From Bacteroidales bacterium (lineage in GTDB: Bacteria; Bacteroidota; Bacteroidia; Bacteroidales; Muribaculaceae): a DNA stretch of 64,000 bases. Under the pieces are notes generated by a model. The model ran no database searches. It was not told where the DNA came from and worked only from the letters and a program-made list of their open reading frames with translations. The stretch lies in NCBI GenBank assembly GCA_910575545.1, contig CAJTFH010000006.1:1-64000 (forward strand), given 5' to 3'. The position numbers and the translations under genes are program-made. Positions 7,287 to 46,419 of the stretch are shown piece after piece (the stretch's first letter is position 1; every line of letters starts with the position of its first letter).

Positions 7287-10058
7287 TTAGCCCACAACTA
7301 TGTTGACTATCTTTCCAGGAACAACGATTACCTTGCGTATCTGTTTCCCTTCAATCCATCTGGCGCTGTTTTCATGAGCAAGCACCATCTTTTCAACTTC
7401 CGAAGCAGGCATGTCGGCAGCCACACTCACATTGAAACGGGCTTTGCCGTTGAAGCTGACGGCATAATTAACATTGGCTTCCTTAAGATACTCTTCATTC
7501 CATTGCGGCCATGCGGCGTCACACACAGTGGTGTCATTTCCTATGGCATGCCACAATTCCTCTGCCACATGGGGAGCAAACGGGGCAAGAAGCACCAACA
7601 GGTCGGAAAGCACCGCCCTGTTATGGCATTTCTGAGATGTGAGTTCATTGACACATATCATGAATGCACTCACCGAAGTGTTATATGAGAATCCTTCTAT
7701 ATCGGTTGTCACCTTCTTTATGAGTTTGTGAATGGACTTGAGCGATTCTGCAGAAGGCTCATCATCATTGACAAGCAACATGTCACCTTTATAGAACAGG
7801 TTCCAAAGTTTCTTTATAAAACGGTTAACACCGTCAATGCCGTTGGTATCCCACGGTTTGCTCTGCTCTACCGGGCCGAGAAACATCTCATAAAGACGCA
7901 ATGTGTCGGCTCCGTAACGCTCAACAATATCATCAGGATTGACAACGTTGAACATCGATTTCGACATCTTTTCAACAGCATAGCCGCACACATATTTCCC
8001 CTCTTCAAGAATAAATTCCGCACCGGCATATTCCGGACGCCAGCCACGGAATTTTTCTATGTCAAGCACATCGTTTGTAACAATGTTTACATCGACATGG
8101 ATAGGGGTGACATCATAATCTTTCTTGAGATTATATGATACGAATTTATTGGTGTCTTTTATACGATAGACGAAGTTGCTCCTACCCTGTATCATTCCCT
8201 GGTTGATGAGTTTGCGGAACGGTTCATTCTCGCATACCTTTCCAAGGTCATATAGGAACTTATTCCAGAAACGGGAATATATAAGATGGCCGGTAGCATG
8301 TTCAGTGCCACCTACATAGAGGTCTACGTTACGCCAGTAATCATTAGCCTCTTTACCCACAAGAGCACTGTCGTTGTGGGGATCCATATAGCGGAGATAA
8401 TATGCCGAAGACCCTGCGAATCCTGGCATCGTGTTGAGTTCGAGGGGATAACCATCGGCGGTCTGCCAGTTTTTCGCACGTCCTAACGGCGGTTCTCCGG
8501 TCTCAGTAGGCAGATATTTGTCTATCTCAGGCAATTGGAGAGGCAATTGGCTCTCATCAAACATATATGGTATGCCATCTTTATAATAGACCGGAAATGG
8601 CTCACCCCAATAGCGCTGGCGGCTGAAAATTGCATCGCGTAAGCGGTAATTGGTTTTGACTTTACCTATACCCTTTTCCTCTATGAACCGCTTGGTGGCT
8701 GCAATGGCATCTTTAACTTCCATGCCGTTAAGATTAAGTTCAGGCCCGTCTGAATTTATCATTCTGCCCTCTTTGGCATCGAAGCTCTCTTCGCTCACAT
8801 CAGCCCCTTCAATAAGCGGAATTACAGGAAGGTCGAAATGGCGGGCAAAAGCATAGTCACGACTGTCGTGAGCCGGAACAGCCATGATTGCTCCTGTGCC
8901 GTAACCGGCAAGCACGTAATCGCTTACATAAACCGGAATCTCTTTGCCGGAAAGCGGATTGATGGCATAGGCACCAGTGAACACACCGCTTACCTTCTTG
9001 TCAATCATGCGTTCACGCTCTGTTTTATGCTTGATTTCATTGCGATAGGCTTCAACAGCTTCGCGGCGGTCCGCAGTTGTCACCATATCTACATATTTGC
9101 TTTCGGGAGCGAGAACCATGAATGTCACTCCGAAAACCGTGTCGGCGCGGGTTGTGAAGATTGTCATCTCCACATCGCTGTCTTTTATCTTAAACTGCAT
9201 CTCAGCCCCTTCAGAGCGGCCGATCCAGTTTCGCTGGGTCTCTTTGATTGAATCAGACCATTCAAGTTTCTCAAGGTCATCGAGCAGACGCGGTGCATAA
9301 GCGCTGACACGCAGACACCATTGCCACATCAGCCTCTGCTCAACCGGATAGCCTCCACGGATTGAAACCCCCTCGCTCACCTCATCGTTGGCAAGCACCG
9401 TGCCGAGTTTGGCACACCAGTTGACCATCGTATTGCCCAGATATGCAAGGCGGTAGTTCATAAGCGTGTCGCTCTTCTGCCTGGCATCCATATACTGCCA
9501 TTCCTCGGCAGTGAAATTCAGAGGTTTTGTCTGCGCCGCGTTTATACCTTCCGAACCATATTTTTCAAAATGCTTTTCGAGATTCTTTATGGGCATAGCC
9601 TTGTTAACGGCAGTGTCGAAATAGTGGTTGAACATCTCGATGAAAGCCCACTGAGTCCATTTATAGTATTGCGGATCACAGGTACGTATCTCCCTGTCCC
9701 AGTCGTAACAGAATCCTATACGGTCGAGCTGACCACGGTAGCGGGTTATGTTTTCGCGGGTTGTGACTTCAGGATGCTGACCGGTCTGGATGGCATATTG
9801 CTCGGCAGGAAGCCCGTATGCGTCGTATCCCATCGGGTGGAGCACATTGAATCCGCGCAGACGCTTATAGCGGGCAAATATATCAGAAGCAATGTAGCCC
9901 AACGGATGCCCTACATGAAGCCCTGCACCCGACGGATAGGGGAACATGTCGAGAATGTAGAATTTTGGACGTGTAGAATCGGTTTCAGTCTTATAAACCT
10001 TATTATCTTTCCAATAACGCTGCCAGCGCTGTTCAATATCTTTGTGCTTGTATTCCAT
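7287..10058 (-). CDS. leuS: Leucyl-tRNA synthetase
   Basis: Class Ia aminoacyl-tRNA synthetase charging tRNA-Leu. The 923-residue chain shows the ATP-site HIGH-like motif HVGHPLGY within the first 60 residues, the CP1 editing domain with [12 protein letters not shown] and [19 protein letters not shown], the leucine-specific region, and [11 protein letters not shown] (KMSKS) before the helical anticodon-binding domain ([16 protein letters not shown]). Length is normal for Bacteroidetes. The gene stands alone between nadA, 29 bp upstream, and the terminator at 7209-7259. Confidence 0.97.
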
Positions 10059-11053: not shown

Positions 11054-11477
11054 TTCTTTATATTTAAAATGATTGAAAATAATCTTTGAAAAAATCAGCT
11101 TTTCTTAAATAGTAATAATGGGTGTTGAAATCAATGATAACTTTCTAACCGTTTTCTTGTTTTTTCAGGTTATTGAATAGAACTCCACAGAAACAACACC
11201 GTTATTAACACATGCAACTATTGATCATCAGTTGTTTATGATGCTTATCAACATTGTGTTAATAACATGCAAAGTTAATAACTTTCTTTGAATAGAACCA
11301 TCAATAACTGTGGAAATCACCATTGAAAACCATTTTATAACACACTTCGGTTTGATTTGTATGTTTAATAAGATTGCTTTATACAATGTCTTTCTGCCTA
11401 TTTCCAAATATGGTTGATTCTTTTTCACAACAGCTCTTTCAACCTGTTTTCCACATTTCTCCACATGTTTTTCCACA
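11039..11477. other. Candidate chromosomal replication origin (oriC)
   Basis: The 524-bp gap between nadA and a lipoprotein gene holds no convincing gene. It contains DnaA-box-like 9-mers: TTTTCCACA at 11039-11047, 11447-11455 and 11469-11477; TTCTCCACA at 11457-11465; TTATCAACA at 11245-11253 (one mismatch to TTATCCACA); and ATTTCCACA on the minus strand at 11309-11317. Three lie in tandem in one orientation within 31 bp. A very AT-rich stretch (about 11048-11120) could be the unwinding element. There are also paired sequences: TTGAATAGAAC twice, GTTATTAAC and GTTAATAAC, and the near-palindrome AAAGTTAATAACTTT (11271-11285). Sampled strand composition switches from C-rich to G-rich around here. 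The call is inference; dnaA is not in the window. Confidence 0.5.
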
Positions 11478-11507
11478 CCTGTCCACCACGATGGTTTCAA
11501 TATAAAA

Positions 11508-11538
11508 AACCGCCGTATAGGAAAACTATATGACGGTT
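11508..11538 (-). terminator. Rho-independent terminator of the lipoprotein gene
   Basis: A 13-bp stem with one mismatch and one G-T pair: arms 11508-11520 (AACCGCCGTATAG) and 11526-11538 (CTATATGACGGTT), loop GAAAA. On the minus strand it is followed by a T-run. It lies 39 bp after the stop of the gene at 11577-12008. Confidence 0.75.
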
Positions 11539-11576
11539 CTGATGGATTAAAACAGGGTAGGGCTGTATCCTTGAAT

Positions 11577-12008
11577 TTATAACTCTTCGGGAGTTATGGT
11601 AATTGTCTGGGTCTTGCCTGTGCCATCTTCTACATAGACATATTTGAGACCCATTCCGAGTTCTTTGAGTCGTTTCACTGCTGATTCGCCGGCCGCTTCA
11701 ATTATGTTTGCTTTGTTTTCGGCAGAATCATCTATTTCAAGTTCTGTGCCTTCCTCATATGTGCATGTGCTCACGAGATAGCCGTCTTCGATAGCCATTT
11801 TGGTGAGTGTGAGTCCTTCGCCTGTTTCAACCGGGAGTTCTTTGTTGACTTTCTCGATTTCATGCTCCATACCTTTGAGCATAAGTTTCTGTTTGGTTGT
11901 CAGTTCTTTGTTTTCAGAACCTGTTTCCCCCTCATTTTTTGAACCTGAGCATGAAGACATACCAAACACGAGAACGGCAGCTGTGAATAATTTCAGAATT
12001 TTTGTCAT
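11577..12008 (-). CDS. Small lipoprotein of unknown function
   Basis: 143 residues. The N terminus is a lipoprotein signal (MTKILKLFTAAVLVFGMSSC) with the lipobox cysteine at residue 20, followed by a Ser/Gly/Glu-rich linker and a compact acidic domain of about 110 residues (for example GEGLTLTKMAIEDGYLV and GLKYVYVEDGTGKTQTITI). It is probably anchored to a membrane facing the periplasm or surface. I do not recognise the domain. It has its own promoter (12047-12077) and terminator (11508-11538), so it is a monocistronic unit beside the candidate origin. Confidence 0.8.
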   Translation of the reverse strand: MTKILKLFTAAVLVFGMSSCSGSKNEGETGSENKELTTKQKLMLKGMEHEIEKVNKELPVETGEGLTLTKMAIEDGYLVSTCTYEEGTELEIDDSAENKANIIEAAGESAVKRLKELGMGLKYVYVEDGTGKTQTITITPEEL

Positions 12009-12046
12009 GTTAAAGAAATTTTAATTGTTAAGTCTTTATAGTTATG

Positions 12047-12077
12047 CAAAGTTATCCCATTAAATCGGTTCGGCAAA
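12047..12077 (-). promoter_or_regulatory. Bacteroidetes-type promoter for the lipoprotein gene
   Basis: Read on the minus strand: -33 TTTG (12077-12074), 19-bp spacer, -7 TAACTTTG (12054-12047). Both boxes match the Bacteroidetes sigma-ABfr consensus TTTG and TAnnTTTG. The start codon at 12008 lies about 40 bp downstream. Confidence 0.7.
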
Positions 12078-12086
12078 GCAGCCATG

Positions 12087-12116
12087 TTGTTTTTTGGAGG
12101 ATTATTAGTAGATTTG
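12087..12116 (+). promoter_or_regulatory. Promoter for the MscS-type channel gene
   Basis: A -33 TTG (12087-12089), 19-bp spacer and -7 TAGATTTG (12109-12116). Transcription would begin near 12123, after the first ATG of the frame (12084), so translation must start at 12129 or later. It overlaps the divergent promoter region of the lipoprotein gene. Confidence 0.5.
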
Positions 12117-12128
12117 CAAAAGGGAAGG

Positions 12129-13358
12129 ATGGAATGTTTTAGAACCCAAATGCATAGTTTGAGAATCATGGTAGATGCTGTTAAAGAATTTCTTACGTCT
12201 AATATTTCAGGGCCGATGAGTGGCCAGATTATAACTCTTGTGCAGCTTTGTGGAATTTTACTTGTTGCTGTTGCAGCTTACTATCTGACTAAAAAAATCC
12301 TGATGGTTCTGGAAAAAGCCATTCTCAGAAGCCCTACGGAGTGGGACGATGACCTGTTGAATCCCCGTTTCATGCGGGCTGTTTCTCAGTTGTCGCCTGC
12401 AATAACAGTGGCATGGTTGCTTCCGAAATTTTTCTCTGATACGCCTGGAGAGGTAAGATGGATAGATATCCTGACTTCCCTTTATATACTTTGGGCTGGA
12501 GTCAGGATTGTGACCATCTTCATAGATAATCTTTATGATGCCTTTATCAGCCGTGAACAGCTCCGGCCATATGCAATCAAGGGGATTTTCCAGATGTTCA
12601 AATTGGTAGTGATTTCCGTTGGTGCAATCATAGCGCTTAGCATATTGATAAATAAAACCCCTGTGGCTATTCTAACGGCTTTGGGTGCTTCTGCCGCAGT
12701 GTTGATGTTGGTGTTTAAAGACACTATTCTCGGCCTGGTGGCCAGTGTGCAGCTTACCGCTAACAAGATGCTCGACCGTGGCGATTGGATTTCTATGCCG
12801 AACCGTGACCTTAACGGTGAGGTGCTCGATGTGTCGCTGACAACGGTGAAGGTTCGTAACTGGGATAATTCAGTTACAACGGTTCCTCCATATTCTTTGG
12901 TTTCAGAATCATTCCGCAATTATCGTCCGATGCAGGAATCGGGAGGCAGACGGGTTGACCGTTCTGTTTATATCGACGTCAACACGGTCGGTTTCCTTTC
13001 TTCTGAAGAAATTGAAACGCTCCGCTCCGAAGGTTTTCTCAACGGCATTGAGTCTAAAAACAACTCCCGTGTGGTGAATCTCGGTCTTTGGCGTGATTAT
13101 ATTGAGGATTATCTGCGTAAACGTTCCGATATAAACTCTGAAATGACTTTGATGGTGCGCCAGATGCAGCCTACGAATGCCGGATTGCCGGTGCAGTTAT
13201 ATTTTTTCACCCGCACAACCGCTTGGGTGGAATATGAGCATATACAGGCTGATGTGTTCGACCATGTGTATGCAACCGTGCGCCGTTTCGGGTTAGCTAT
13301 ATATCAATCGCCGGCCGGCACTGATTTGTGTCGGATCGGGACATATTCAAGAATATAG
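12129..13358 (+). CDS. MscS-family mechanosensitive channel, YbdG-like
   Basis: Inner-membrane channel that opens under membrane tension to release osmolytes. Four or so hydrophobic segments precede the MscS core: GASAAVLMLVFKDTILGLVA is the pore-lining helix region, followed by the beta domain (DWISMPNRDLNGEVLDVSL and VRNWDNSVTTVPPYSLVSE) and a C-terminal cytoplasmic domain. Total length, about 410 residues, and the insert after NYRPMQESGGRRVDRS match the YbdG subgroup. The frame is open from 12084, but the promoter at 12087-12116 excludes that start; ATGs at 12129, 12150 and 12168 are candidates. It is divergent from the lipoprotein gene. Confidence 0.88.
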   Translation: MECFRTQMHSLRIMVDAVKEFLTSNISGPMSGQIITLVQLCGILLVAVAAYYLTKKILMVLEKAILRSPTEWDDDLLNPRFMRAVSQLSPAITVAWLLPKFFSDTPGEVRWIDILTSLYILWAGVRIVTIFIDNLYDAFISREQLRPYAIKGIFQMFKLVVISVGAIIALSILINKTPVAILTALGASAAVLMLVFKDTILGLVASVQLTANKMLDRGDWISMPNRDLNGEVLDVSLTTVKVRNWDNSVTTVPPYSLVSESFRNYRPMQESGGRRVDRSVYIDVNTVGFLSSEEIETLRSEGFLNGIESKNNSRVVNLGLWRDYIEDYLRKRSDINSEMTLMVRQMQPTNAGLPVQLYFFTRTTAWVEYEHIQADVFDHVYATVRRFGLAIYQSPAGTDLCRIGTYSRI

Positions 13359-29402: not shown

Positions 29403-30635
29403 GTGGTACTTAATTACATCTGGATAGCTTTTTTTCTTGTGACTTTTGTTGTGGCCCTGTTTCAGACGGTGGTGGCCGGCGACCTTTCGGTCTGGTCATC
29501 CATCATGTCGGCATCATTCAGCTCGGCAGCCACTGCGTTTGAAATTTCGTTGGGGCTGGCGGGAATCCTGTCATTATGGTTGGGGTTGATGAAGATCGGT
29601 GAACGTGCGGGTGTCATCGGTTTTTTCGGGAGGTTGGTGTCCCCCTTGTTCACGCGGCTTTTCCCCGGAGTGCCGAAAGGGCACCCGGCAATGGGTTCGA
29701 TTTTCATGAACGTGTCGGCAAATATGCTTGGTCTCGACAATGCCGCTACGCCGCTCGGACTGAAAGCCATGCAGGAGCTTCAGTCTATCAACAAGAAGAA
29801 AGACACCGCCACAGATGCCATGATAATGTTTCTGGTGCTTAACGCCTCGGGACTATGCTTCATCCCAATCAGCATAATGATGTATCGTGCCCAGGCCGGG
29901 GCAGCGAATCCTACCGACATTTTCCTCCCCATCCTTCTGGCCACCTTTATTTCCACACTTGTGGGGATTGTTGCCCTTTGCATAAAACAGCGCATCAGGC
30001 TGACCGACCCTGTGCTGCTGGCATGGCTTGCTGGCATGGGAGCGATAATCGCGTTAATAGTATGGCTGTTTTCAGGCATGGAAGGTGAAAGGGTAGAGCA
30101 GTGGTCGGGATTCATTGCGAATGCATTGCTCCTAAGCGTTATTGTTCTCTTTCTGATGGCGGGAATGCGTAAAAAGGTAAATGTCTACGAGACCTTCATA
30201 GAAGGGGCTAAGGAGGGCTTTAAAACAGCCGTCACTATAATTCCTTATCTCGTGGCCATACTTGTTGCCATAGGCATGTTCCGTGCGTCAGGGGCGATGG
30301 ACTGGCTTACTCGTGGCGCAACGTGGATTGTGGGTTGCTGCGGCATCGACACCGGCTGGGTGGAGGCGCTTCCCACCGCATTGATGAAACCGCTCAGCGG
30401 TTCCGGCTCGCGCGGCATGATGATTGATCTGATGACAGCCCATGGGGCTGATTCTTTCGTAGCCCGCGTGTCGGCGGCAATCCAGGGTTCTACCGACACT
30501 ATGTTTTATGTCCTGGCCGTGTATTTCGGCTCTGTCGGCATCCGCAAGACCCGCTATGCCGTGGGTTACGCCCTCCTGGCCGACATCGCCGGTTCCGTCG
30601 CAGGTGTCCTCGCCGCCTACCTCTTCTTCAAATAA
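29403..30635 (+). CDS. Fused SpmA-SpmB (nucleoside recognition domain) membrane protein
   Basis: 410 residues with about ten hydrophobic helices in two halves. The first half carries SLWLGLMKIGERAGVI and MNVSANMLGLDNAATPLGLKAM, the SpmA signature; the second carries FIEGAKEGFKTAVTIIPYLVAI and ALMKPLSGSGSRGMMIDLM, the SpmB signature. These are separate spore-maturation genes in Bacillus and are commonly fused in non-sporulating Bacteroidetes, where the function is unknown. The start codon follows a 190-bp gap with no other gene. Confidence 0.88.
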   Translation: MVLNYIWIAFFLVTFVVALFQTVVAGDLSVWSSIMSASFSSAATAFEISLGLAGILSLWLGLMKIGERAGVIGFFGRLVSPLFTRLFPGVPKGHPAMGSIFMNVSANMLGLDNAATPLGLKAMQELQSINKKKDTATDAMIMFLVLNASGLCFIPISIMMYRAQAGAANPTDIFLPILLATFISTLVGIVALCIKQRIRLTDPVLLAWLAGMGAIIALIVWLFSGMEGERVEQWSGFIANALLLSVIVLFLMAGMRKKVNVYETFIEGAKEGFKTAVTIIPYLVAILVAIGMFRASGAMDWLTRGATWIVGCCGIDTGWVEALPTALMKPLSGSGSRGMMIDLMTAHGADSFVARVSAAIQGSTDTMFYVLAVYFGSVGIRKTRYAVGYALLADIAGSVAGVLAAYLFFK

Positions 30636-30679: not shown

Positions 30680-30856
30680 GAGGGTGTGTCATAATGGCTC
30701 ATCTGGGTCGTCGCCCGAGGGCTTCGGGTTCGGTCATTGACCTTAGTCAACTCCCTTCACCCTCACCCTCAGGCTCCTACCATCTGAACCATTCTGACAG
30801 CACCCTCTCCATCCGGATGCCAAAAAGGCGTTGGTCGAATTTCGACACAACGCCTT
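30680..30856 (+). repeat. Dispersed structured repeat, copy A
   Basis: 177 bp, matched in inverted orientation by 45084-45266 with no difference except one extra hexamer in that copy. Internal structures: TTGAC-CTTA-GTCAA hairpin, the palindrome CATCCGGATG, and a terminal hairpin (AAGGCGTTG paired with CAACGCCTT) followed here by an A/T-rich tail like a terminator. A small ORF (ATG at 30694, 54 codons, product starting MAHLGRRPRASGSV) spans it. It lies between the spmAB fusion and the ybeY promoter. No transposase is present; it may be a MITE-like element, a structured RNA or a terminator-type repeat. Confidence 0.85.
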
Positions 30857-30906: not shown

Positions 30907-31338
30907 ATGGAAAACCGGTTCCAATGGTTGGCCGAGGGGGTAGAACTCCCTGAGCTTGATTATGGATTGCTTGAAAAATGGATTGAGTCTGTGGCATCAT
31001 GCCATGGCCGCATAGCCGGCAATCTATCGTATATATTCTGCAACGACGACCGTATAATTGAAGTCAACAGGCAGTTCCTCAACCATGATTACTACACCGA
31101 CATAATAACTTTCGATGATTGCAGGGGCAGACTGCTGCGCGGCGACATGTTCATCTCGCTCGACACTGTTGCAACGAATGCAGAGCTTCAACGAGTGTCG
31201 TATGGCGATGAATTGCTGCGTGTCATAATCCACGGTGTGCTCCATCTTTGCGGCATCAACGATAAAGGCCCCGGTGAGCGTGAAATCATGGAGGCAAATG
31301 AAGATGAGGCTTTGGCCATGCTCAAGGGTATGGCTTAA
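30907..31338 (+). CDS. ybeY: Endoribonuclease YbeY (rRNA maturation factor)
   Basis: 143 residues. YbeY processes the 16S rRNA 3' end and assists ribosome quality control. The signature region reads RVIIHGVLHLCGINDKGPGE: the first two histidines of the HxxxHxxxxxH zinc motif are present, but the third position is aspartate instead of histidine. Upstream, YIFCNDDRIIEVNRQFLNHDYYTDIITF is the usual central segment. It precedes mnmG by 71 bp, and the two are probably cotranscribed. Confidence 0.9.
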   Translation: MENRFQWLAEGVELPELDYGLLEKWIESVASCHGRIAGNLSYIFCNDDRIIEVNRQFLNHDYYTDIITFDDCRGRLLRGDMFISLDTVATNAELQRVSYGDELLRVIIHGVLHLCGINDKGPGEREIMEANEDEALAMLKGMA

Positions 31339-40484: not shown

Positions 40485-40670
40485 TAAGTAAGTCGTCACA
40501 ATTATTTTATATTATCGGAGAGAGATTTTTCAAGGGATTTTAGCCTGAGAATGAAGGAGTGTAGTTGTCTACACGACTGAATATGAAGGCTAAAAGCACC
40601 GAAAAAGCTCCGCCGATGATATAAAGTCTCAAAATTCATAATATGCGTAATAATTTTGATGACTTACTTA
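40485..40670. repeat. Fold-back element 2, MITE-like (186 bp)
   Basis: Terminal inverted repeats of 22 bp, TAAGTAAGTCGTCACAATTA.. (40485-40506) and its complement at 40649-40670, with two mismatches. Pairing continues inward: TTTATATTATCGG and TTTTAGCCT on the left match the right arm, so almost the whole element can fold into one long imperfect hairpin, with GTGTAG-TTGT-CTACAC (40559-40574) near the tip. The ends begin TA and finish TA, as expected for a TA target duplication (IS630/mariner type). No ORF; probably a non-autonomous element. Confidence 0.7.
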
Positions 40671-44007: not shown

Positions 44008-44934
44008 ATGCCAAGACCTGTGATAAAAACCAAACCGGGGGCTGAACGCAGAGCGCTGCGCCCCGACACCATAGTGACCTTTGCAGTTGCCGGGCCGTCG
44101 AAGCTGCTCGAATTCCTTTTCGCAGCCATGCCCGACCGCAAGCGCACTAACATCAAAGAACTGCTGAAATATGACCAGGTTATGGTCAACGGCACTGTCA
44201 CGCGGCAATTCGATGCTACGCTGCAGGCCGGCGACGAGGTGAGGATAAACCTCACACGGGCTTTTGTAACGTTCTACAATCGCCGTGTGCAGCTTGTTTA
44301 TGAAGACGACGACCTGCTCGTTGTAAACAAAGGCTATGGACTGTTGTCTATCGGCAACGACAAGATAAGGGAGGGTACGGCATATTCAATCGTGCGCGAT
44401 TATCTTAAAAATAAAGACCCGCGCAACAAAGTGTTCATAGTCCACCGTCTCGACCAGCACACATCCGGGCTGATGGTGTTCGCTAAAAATATTGAGGCAA
44501 AAGAAGGGCTGCAGCATAACTGGAACAACATGGTCCGCCGACGCCAGTATGTCTGCGTGGTCGAAGGGAAGCTCGTTCCACCCGCCGGCGATGTGAAAAG
44601 CTATCTGGCAGAAAACTCCGAGCATGTTGTCTATTCAACCGATAACCCGGAAGAGGGGCAGTTTGCCTTGACCCGTTACAAGACTGTCGCATCAGCCAAC
44701 GGCTACACCCTCGTGGAGGTTGAGCTTGAAACGGGTCGCAAAAACCAGATCCGCGTCCACATGAAAGATCTCGGGCACCCCATAGCCGGCGACCGCCGCT
44801 ACGGTGCCCGCACGTCGCCCATCCACCGCCTCGCCCTCCACGCGCGCACCCTCGAATTCATCCATCCCGTCACCCGCAAGCTCCTCAGCTTCTCCACCCC
44901 TGTTCCGGCTCCCTTCCAGTCGATGGTGAAATAA
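44008..44934 (+). CDS. RluA-family RNA pseudouridine synthase
   Basis: 308 residues. An S4 RNA-binding domain (about 25-90: LLEFLFAAMPDRKRTNIKELL) precedes the catalytic domain, with the active-site aspartate in VHRLDQHTSGLMVFAKN, YVCVVEGKLVPPAG and GRKNQIRVHMKDLGHPIAGD. It isomerises uridines in 23S rRNA or tRNA; the paralogue (RluD, RluC or other) cannot be fixed. Probably cotranscribed with topA. Confidence 0.92.
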   Translation: MPRPVIKTKPGAERRALRPDTIVTFAVAGPSKLLEFLFAAMPDRKRTNIKELLKYDQVMVNGTVTRQFDATLQAGDEVRINLTRAFVTFYNRRVQLVYEDDDLLVVNKGYGLLSIGNDKIREGTAYSIVRDYLKNKDPRNKVFIVHRLDQHTSGLMVFAKNIEAKEGLQHNWNNMVRRRQYVCVVEGKLVPPAGDVKSYLAENSEHVVYSTDNPEEGQFALTRYKTVASANGYTLVEVELETGRKNQIRVHMKDLGHPIAGDRRYGARTSPIHRLALHARTLEFIHPVTRKLLSFSTPVPAPFQSMVK

Positions 44935-45083: not shown

Positions 45084-45266
45084 AAGGCGTTGTGTCGAAA
45101 TTCGACCAACGCCTTTTTGGCATCCGGATGGAGAGGGTGCTGTCAGAATGGTTCAGATGGTAGGAGCCTGAGGGTGAGGGTGAAGGTGAAGGGAGTTGAC
45201 TAAGGTCAATGACCGAACCCGAAGCCCTCGGGCGACGACCCAGATGAGCCATTATGACACACCCTC
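45084..45266 (-). repeat. Dispersed structured repeat, copy B
   Basis: 183 bp, the reverse complement of 30680-30856. The sole difference is one extra hexamer of the CTTCAC/CCTCAC type (three units in place of two), so the embedded small frame stays in phase and gains two residues (PSPSPSPS instead of PSPSPS). Outside these limits the flanks differ at once. In this copy the terminal hairpin has a T-run on the plus strand (GCCTTTTTGG) because of the repeat's own sequence, which can terminate rluA-side transcription. It lies between convergent rluA-type and lrgB genes. Confidence 0.85.
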
Positions 45267-45296: not shown

Positions 45297-45995
45297 TCAG
45301 ATAGTGTAGCCGATAAGGTGGAGGATTAGGGGGGCGAGGATGGCAGTGAGCAGCCCGTTTATGGTAAGTCCCAATGAGGAGAATGCGCCGTAGCGCTCGC
45401 TTAGTTCCATGGCGGCGGATGTGCCCATGGCATGGGCAGCGGTTCCCATGGAGAGTCCCTTGGCTATAGGGCTGTTGACACGTCCGAGCCTGATTATGCG
45501 GAATCCGGCCATTCCGCCAAAAATGCCTGTGCAAACAACCACGGCAGCAGTCAGGGCGGGAATGCCTCCGATTGAATTTGACACTTCCATGGCTATGGGG
45601 GTGGTGACGGCCTTAGGCGCCAGCGACATTATCACTTCTTGTGACGCCCCGAGGAAACGGGCGGCAAGCACCACGGATATCACCCCTGCCACGCATCCGG
45701 CCATCTCGGCCACTAACAGCGGCAGCATCTGTTTCCTGATAGCCCCTAACTGTTTATAGAGCGGCACTCCGAGTGCCACCACGGCAGGCTTGAGCCAGAA
45801 ATCGATATAGTCGCCGCTTTCTTTATAGGTCGAGTAGTCTACCCCTGCCGACATTAGGATGCAAATCAGAACCACTATGGAAACGAGGATTGGATTGAGC
45901 AGTTTGACCCCTGTGGCTCTTTGGAGTTGTTGGGCCAGCACGAACACGATGAATGTCAGGGCTATGAGGAATAATTTGTTTGTGAAGAAATCCAT
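45297..45995 (-). CDS. lrgB: LrgB/CidB-family membrane protein
   Basis: About 232 residues from ATG 45995 (MDFFTNKLFLIALTFIVF); the frame extends further upstream but overlaps lrgA. Six or more hydrophobic helices and the family signature AEMAGCVAGVISVVLAARFLG, LAPKAVTTPIAMEVSNSIGG and GTAAHAMGTSAAMELSE. LrgAB/CidAB were first linked to control of murein hydrolases and, in plants and bacteria, to glycolate, lactate or pyruvate export. The start lies 7 bp after the lrgA stop, so the pair is one operon. Confidence 0.9.
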   Translation of the reverse strand: MDFFTNKLFLIALTFIVFVLAQQLQRATGVKLLNPILVSIVVLICILMSAGVDYSTYKESGDYIDFWLKPAVVALGVPLYKQLGAIRKQMLPLLVAEMAGCVAGVISVVLAARFLGASQEVIMSLAPKAVTTPIAMEVSNSIGGIPALTAAVVVCTGIFGGMAGFRIIRLGRVNSPIAKGLSMGTAAHAMGTSAAMELSERYGAFSSLGLTINGLLTAILAPLILHLIGYTI

Positions 45996-46002
45996 ATGCC
46001 GG

Positions 46003-46419
46003 TTAATCTGCGATTTTCGTTGGTTGGTTTGCTCCCGCGTTATCATGTCTGTGCCTTTGGCGTATGCTCCGGCGCATGAATTGATGCACATGTCCGGTCA
46101 CAACCAGTATGACTGTGGTGCTGACGACGGTTGCCCCCGCTATCGGCATCCATTCCCTTGCGATAAGCCCCAGGCAGCTCATAAGTCCGACCCCGGCCGG
46201 CACGAAAAAGAACCCAAGATTGTGCACCAGGAAATCGGCGGTTTTTTCCACATGCCTGAGTTTCACCACTTTCAGCTGTAACGCGAGTGTCAGCAGAAGC
46301 ATCCCAATGATGCTCGACGGCACTGATATGCCGGTGAGCCACACCGTAAACTCTCCGAGCGCAAGAAATGCGAACAGCACCCCGCATTGAAATATCATGT
46401 TCATCAGAATAACGGTCAA
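46003..46419 (-). CDS. lrgA: LrgA/CidA-family holin-like membrane protein
   Basis: 138 residues with four hydrophobic helices, including LALGEFTVWLTGISVPSSIIG and FFFVPAGVGLMSCLGLI, the CidA/LrgA pattern. The C-terminal 25 residues are hydrophilic and basic. Partner of lrgB directly downstream. Upstream, TAACTTTG read on the minus strand (46485-46478) is a likely -7 box. Confidence 0.9.
   Translation of the reverse strand: MTVILMNMIFQCGVLFAFLALGEFTVWLTGISVPSSIIGMLLLTLALQLKVVKLRHVEKTADFLVHNLGFFFVPAGVGLMSCLGLIAREWMPIAGATVVSTTVILVVTGHVHQFMRRSIRQRHRHDNAGANQPTKIAD

Follow-up and report, generated by a model that had tools for sequence, protein, structure and literature searches.

We propose that the repeat which stands twice, in inverted orientation, in the window (the whole stretch of 64,000 nucleotides of Bacteroidales DNA that was analysed) is a short non-autonomous mobile element, built of a core of the ERIC/IRU type and a terminator hairpin and spreading into the stems of terminator hairpins; we would give this reading a probability of roughly two in three. 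What it rests on was observed directly, namely the copy number, the homology of the core to ERIC, the covariation, the strand preference, the position of the units, the palindromes formed by their flanks and, at two sites, the terminator hairpins of sister species. According to our analysis the 175-bp unit is a new variant, in which an ERIC core is joined to a terminator hairpin and carried by a vehicle that has no TA ends and targets hairpins. The nature of ERIC, its movement and its retention have been open questions since about 1990.

Along the plus strand the unit consists of a 128-nt core, a 19-nt linker and a 28-nt hairpin of terminator type (Table 1). The first-pass annotation had placed copy 1 at 30680-30856, and a unit does stand there, except that the last two T's are flank and the unit ends at 30854. 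The two copies had been described as an inverted pair, identical apart from one hexamer, and copy 1 indeed differs from the reverse complement of 45086-45266 by a single 6-nt insertion and no substitution. The abrupt ends were confirmed as well, the suspected terminator-like end corresponds to a terminal hairpin in the fold, and the unit itself indeed lacks a transposase, as reported. The roughly 60 copies in the genome, a third, diverged member in the window (40503-40628) and the ERIC relationship had escaped that annotation, which likewise left the family, the strand, the insertion mode and the second vehicle unidentified.

Table 1. Elements in the window and the genes beside them (R1 and R2 are the covariance models described in the text)
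Feature	Position	Strand	Basis or remark
Gate (nucleoside recognition) domain protein	29403..30635	+	Pfam; its stop 44 nt before copy 1
Copy 1, whole 175-bp unit	30680..30854	- (RNA sense of core)	among the 53 full units of the genome
Copy 1, ERIC-type core hairpin, 128 nt	30680..30807	- (RNA sense)	R1 150.9 bits, R2 124.2 bits; fold; covariation
Copy 1, linker, 19 nt	30808..30826	-	present in this genome's units, variable in sister species
Copy 1, terminator-type hairpin, 28 nt, closing the unit	30827..30854	.	fold; same hairpin type found alone elsewhere
YbeY endoribonuclease, after copy 1	30907..31338	+	Pfam
Third element, unit of 186 bp that encloses the same type of core between IS630-like ends (TAAGTAAGTC...)	40485..40670	.	
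Third element, diverged ERIC-type core	40503..40628	+	R2 47.2 bits, E 1.4e-9
Pseudouridine synthase, upstream of copy 2 on the RNA-sense strand of copy 2	44008..44934	+	Pfam
Copy 2, whole unit of 181 bp with an additional 6-nt repeat, in inverse orientation to copy 1	45086..45266	+	
Copy 2, terminator-type hairpin	45086..45113	.	sequence
Copy 2, ERIC-type core, RNA sense	45133..45266	+	R1 137.4 bits, R2 111 bits
LrgB family protein	45297..46091	-	Pfam; its stop 30 nt from copy 2

A lack of further copies would have refuted the first-pass annotation; in the 3.27-Mb genome (73 contigs) the 22-nt 5' motif of the unit, with at most three mismatches, occurs in 60 places, 29 forward and 31 reverse, and its reversed control in none, which puts the repetition well outside what chance would give. 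A complete unit end is present in 53 of these places, and the remaining seven, which have no standard 3' end, are excluded from the unit statistics. Twenty-one of the 53 units equal copy 1 over all 175 nt, 51 are at least 97% identical, and a single one has a 45-nt deletion. Positions 142 and 171 covary (C142/A171 in 25 copies, A142/G171 in 19, A142/A171 in seven, other combinations in two). Our first homology search, of 61 genomes including the window's own, found the element in 11, nine of them from the window's genus. The mobility of the 175-bp unit is well supported. Recent spread and strong selection had both been offered as causes of the identity of the window pair, and each has gained ground, the former from about 60 copies in one genome at sites that differ from those of sister species where checked, the latter from compensatory base-pair changes in the core. 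Some loci are of more complicated structure: a pair of inverted copies at a distance of about 660 bp, whose surroundings mirror each other (L034 and L042; G011:C26, about 11269-12296), forms a large palindrome or an assembly fold-back, in a diverged copy (L083; G000:C18, 12000-18500) the tip of the terminal hairpin encloses a further long palindrome, GTGCACCCCCAAAAGTT..., and the core of L084 contains a palindromic repeat of a different kind.

The core of copy 1 folds into one long interrupted hairpin, with -105 kcal/mol (z -11.6) on the minus strand against -79.8 kcal/mol (z -8.2) on the plus strand, the two stretches folded differing by a few bases. In an alignment of 18 sequences from three genera of the window's family (A2) standard pairs fill 92.4% of the cells over 46 named pairs, against at most 40.2% in slid structures; in 26 of the 46 pairs both partners have changed, and the observed value was not reached on any measure in 500 shuffles. 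The consensus reaches -58.4 kcal/mol with 37 pairs on the minus strand and only -21.5 kcal/mol with 23 pairs on the plus strand, and because of this better fold we take the minus strand of copy 1, and the plus strand of copy 2, as the sense strand. G-U combinations number 181 against 67 of A-C, with a fixed wobble pair excluded. Judged from these sequences, the core is conserved as a single-stranded nucleic acid; strictly no more than single-strandedness follows, and RNA is the simple reading.

A second alignment of 91 rows from many phyla (A4), fitted to the model R1, gives a similar picture: 90.8% of the cells pair against 55.3% after shuffling, and double changes are found in 44 of the 46 pairs. 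Among its rows are two antisense ones, of loci also represented in sense (L032, L036), and a partial one (L203:4146-4188); the loci L057 and L191, equal in length and score, look like one contig. In the core the outer arms are variable yet covary, the internal loop is conserved and the tip, GG-GA-G(stem)U-GA-CC, is almost invariant; the information per column averages 0.25 bit in the outer arms, 0.80 bit at inner unpaired positions and 1.36 bit at the tip. As the rows from other phyla were picked partly by pattern, their apical conservation is partly selected. A conserved interior with free arms is unusual for a MITE, whose ends are expected to be the conserved part.

The minus strand of copy 1 bears the motif GGGAG-stem-TGACCGA. 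The ERIC of E. coli was located by means of what we take to be the ERIC-PCR primer sequences, which are present in joined form in 5375 of 5426 E. coli genomes, and the locus between ybhJ and ybhI was taken. Two covariance models were applied, R1 from 18 Bacteroidales sequences and R2 from the 91 rows, with Enterobacterales excluded from training. Within the 3-kb E. coli locus the top match of R1 is exactly the central hairpin of ERIC (15.1 bits, E 0.006, local only), and R2 matches this ERIC at full length (37.8 bits, E 1.6e-7), as it does elements of Serratia (56.6 bits), Citrobacter (55.3) and C. freundii (34.5); no other match in the 27 kb scores above 14.2 bits. On the strength of these sequence models we assign the 128-nt core to the structured ERIC/IRU family, and it meets the criteria of that family: an imperfect hairpin of about 127 nt, a homologous GGAGC-stem-GTGAC module at the centre and dispersed intergenic repetition, the last by naive ORF calls. 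With ERIC, IRU and RU-1 of enterobacteria (MITEEc1, MITEPlu5) it further shares the inner motif order AAGG ... AACG, the many copies and the lack of a transposase inside. It differs from them in the host phylum and in its coupling to a terminator hairpin; the 175-bp unit, moreover, has no TA termini, is inserted in hairpins and does not fulfil the criterion for a TA-type MITE, since its 53 junctions have varied flanks and no TA duplication. The ends of ERIC carry TA (PMC2229807, Table 1) and those of the Photorhabdus ERIC resemble IS630 elements (PMC6267812), as far as the accessible parts of these papers tell, and the literature examined, likewise available in part, places ERIC/IRU in Gammaproteobacteria. 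We found no description of ERIC outside Gammaproteobacteria or in Bacteroidota in the literature searched, which left subscription journals mostly uncovered and is no proof. Rfam 15 gave no match above the gathering score on the element, either in the window or at 17 loci including the E. coli ERIC, and the sole match below that threshold was a chance one to mir-611. Covariance models are now available for annotating such elements.

The third element of the window, on which R1 scores 35.9 bits (E 3.9e-7) at 40500-40630, represents another carrier of the core. The end motif of such 186-bp units (TAAGTAAGTCGTC...) has 48 matches in the genome and none in controls, and the forms read with IS630-like ends comprise units of 186-187 bp, a 118-bp form and core-less forms of 55-56 bp. 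The 186-bp units start and finish with TA, and a resident IS630-type element has an end that is identical to theirs at 27 of 30 positions, so that the criterion for an IS630 MITE, ends in common with such an element, is met, for the 186-bp units only. Of the resident element just the last 118 bp are present, in five places at contig ends of the genome; complete copies were found in sister genera of the family (NCBIfam IS630 transposase, 117 bits against a cut-off of 100), and a search for the IS630 end in plasmids gave no match. In their ends and terminal TA the 186-bp units are like IS630 MITEs such as RUP; unlike them, they carry an ERIC-type core inside, and core-less forms exist too. One genome therefore holds the core in two vehicles, and it would be logical to regard the core as a passenger separable from any one of them.

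By simple ORF calls, made without a gene finder, the 53 units of the 175-bp type have convergent neighbours in 24 cases, neighbours of one direction in 26 and divergent ones in one, with a neighbour missing in two; mostly the units stand just past stop codons. Their flanks are inverted repeats of each other, flush with the unit and specific to the locus. Over the 53 copies the exact inverted matches of the flanks sum to 134 nt; when left and right flanks were paired anew 10,000 times, the sum averaged 47.7 and never exceeded 82. The match is at least 3 nt long in 21 copies, the best being 11, 11 and 12 nt; at the junctions of 17 copies, including copy 1 of the window, an exact inverted match is lacking, and at copy 2 it spans just 2 nt. 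A direct repeat of at least 4 nt occurs at one copy only (L076; G000:C30, about 7459-7634), where it is 19 bp long (CACACCCTTTTTATGATAT). The criterion of insertion into inverted repeats without duplication, as for an IS1182/IS1272-type MITE, is thereby met.

Two sites were compared by eye with those of relatives. Behind prfB a plain terminator hairpin stands in 10 of 13 sister species; two are unclear, and one (G001) has an element of its own, 8 nt past the stop; the terminator-hairpin type of the unit stands at this site in one sister species. Beside tRNA-Pro a plain hairpin is found in nine of ten readable relatives, and G010 has a hairpin with an apparent core-less remnant of a unit. The terminator-hairpin type of the unit also occurs alone elsewhere in this genome. 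At one such locus (L093; G000:C5, about 155706-155733) perfect, locus-specific arms of 17 bp flank a solo 28-nt hairpin of the unit's terminator type, as if terminator tips had been swapped between loci. Past the prfB terminator of another genome (L260; G008) lies a sequence like that with which, we presume, group II introns begin.

IS1272, of the IS1182 family, enters hairpin stems and terminators, with a part of the hairpin lost and no duplication made, according to the parts of PMC4923244 and PMC5678879 available to us. This precedent, taken together with the inverted flanks and the hairpins at the sister sites, leads us to suggest that the 175-bp units behave like passengers of such a transposase. 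The unit would insert into the stem of an existing terminator hairpin behind a gene and would replace the hairpin tip, a step that we infer without an empty site from the same species; the locus-specific arms would remain as flanking inverted repeats, with no duplication of the target. The putative mover, again inferred and not found, would be a transposase of the IS1182/IS1272 type supplied in trans, and the core may act as RNA, for which we have no transcription data.

The unit shares with IS1272/IS1182 elements the kind of target, an inverted repeat which is often a terminator, and the missing target duplication (PMC4923244 and PMC5678879, both accessible in part); it differs in having no transposase gene and in terminal repeats that match each other at just 11 of 16 positions, and the family itself went undetected in the assembly. 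The IS1182 transposase domain PF13751 has no match in the genome, and no autonomous parent with the ends of the 175-bp unit was found in the DNA examined, so that the criterion of terminal repeats in common with a resident IS1182-type element is not met. A scan with what we assume to be an IS1182-like transposase motif, a weak one, also found none. We regard the absence of the transposase as a weak negative, because the assembly lacks the interiors of repeated insertion sequences, as the IS630 remnant illustrates. The genome has three reverse transcriptase genes, and nothing connects them to the element.

That no transposase was found leaves room for a movement without one, in which hairpin tips would be copied between palindromes by template switching or by host repair of hairpin breaks. 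The barely conserved arms beside the conserved interior, the reverse of what a transposase binding terminal repeats would lead one to expect, are in line with it, and so are solo terminator hairpins with common tips and locus-specific arms, L093 and others. We nevertheless hold tip copying to be unlikely: nearly all copies in the genome have the same arms, which is what a transposed unit should show, the apical conservation across phyla is in part a product of the selection of rows, and IS1272, as far as its partly available description goes, offers a transposase with just such an insertion mode.

Somewhat less probable still is that the repeat does not move at all and is a regulatory RNA or terminator module of the host kept by selection. 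The strong covariation at the RNA level would suit such a module, as would the position of the RNA-sense strand behind a gene of the same strand in 41 of the 52 copies with a gene called on that side; the Yersinia ERIC affects mRNA stability, as stated in the accessible part of PMC2229807. It is hard to reconcile with 53 almost identical units in one species, with functionally unrelated neighbours and with the mostly different hairpins that sister species have at the two sites read. A REP/REPIN element moved by RAYT, a Y1 transposase, would also be a dispersed intergenic hairpin repeat of many copies, an imperfect palindrome with bulges; we consider it very improbable, since the sequence differs and its homology is to ERIC, and Y1_Tnp (PF01797) has no match in this genome by a search that was positive in five of 14 control genomes. 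Open reading frames of 213-231 bp that start inside the unit are called at several copies and might suggest a short protein-coding repeat with an open frame of about 70 codons; this is scarcely tenable, given that the start codon is missing in the relatives that G027 carries (AATAAG for AATGGC) and that base pairing, not codons, governs the changes. Finally, the 53 units with their varied flanks on many contigs rule out both an element confined to the window and an artefact of assembly, and a duplication made in assembly, for which only the division into 73 contigs could be pleaded, can be dismissed on the same evidence.

Across the order, R1 detects the family in 35 of 393 genomes, which belong to 28 of 206 genera. 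A 20-base pattern of the tip has at least 119 matching stretches in GTDB contigs, where by our own estimate about two would be expected by chance; the record titles among the matches listed name Bacteroidota, Clostridia, Bacilli, Coriobacteriia, Gamma- and Alphaproteobacteria, and also Desulfovibrio, Myxococcales and Verrucomicrobia. R1 was given 80 loci of these stretches (L131-L210), at which the conservation of the tip is selected, and reaches E < 0.001 at 61 of them, mostly at full length. For the same reason the flanks of the tip were tested without the model on 117 elements among the matches listed. AAGG stands upstream in 64 (mostly 22 or 23 nt away), AACG downstream in 57 and both in 33; shuffled flanks give 29.7, 22.4 and 5.5, with maxima of 42, 39 and 15 in 300 shuffles. 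The longest reverse-complement match across the flanks of these elements averages 8.4, against 5.2 when shuffled.

It is tempting to go further and to suggest, as a tentative view to which we give rather less than even odds, that ERIC is one branch of a bacteria-wide passenger RNA, which would be selected in its interior, would change its vehicles and arms recurrently, would have colonised several phyla and would bind a conserved cellular partner by its tip and loop. Its vehicles, as a part of the same tentative view, would include IS630 MITEs of the TA type, hairpin-replacing MITEs like those of IS1182, and others. A partner at the invariant tip or internal loop, for which there are no binding data, would aid persistence or make insertions behind genes harmless. 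The family reaches beyond enterobacteria, one strand of its single-stranded hairpin is conserved, and two transposon contexts coexist in one genome; these two contexts allow the core to be distinguished from its carrier, and both the carriers and a reader of the tip and loop thus become testable.

A few observations on the wider set remain. Neighbouring genes are hardly shared: at 83 elements the largest clusters hold only four proteins, at three or four loci. A search of phages returned two stretches with the generic tip pattern, on two viral contigs (L285, L286), and none of the window's own element type. In two Coriobacteriia records and one of Sporosarcina the element abuts the 5' end of 16S rRNA (L141:2323-2557, L177:4208-4329, L179:73-196), at the first of these loci in tandem, and at five others (L138, L146, L150, L153, L174) it is tandemly repeated with a spacing of about 123-129 nt.
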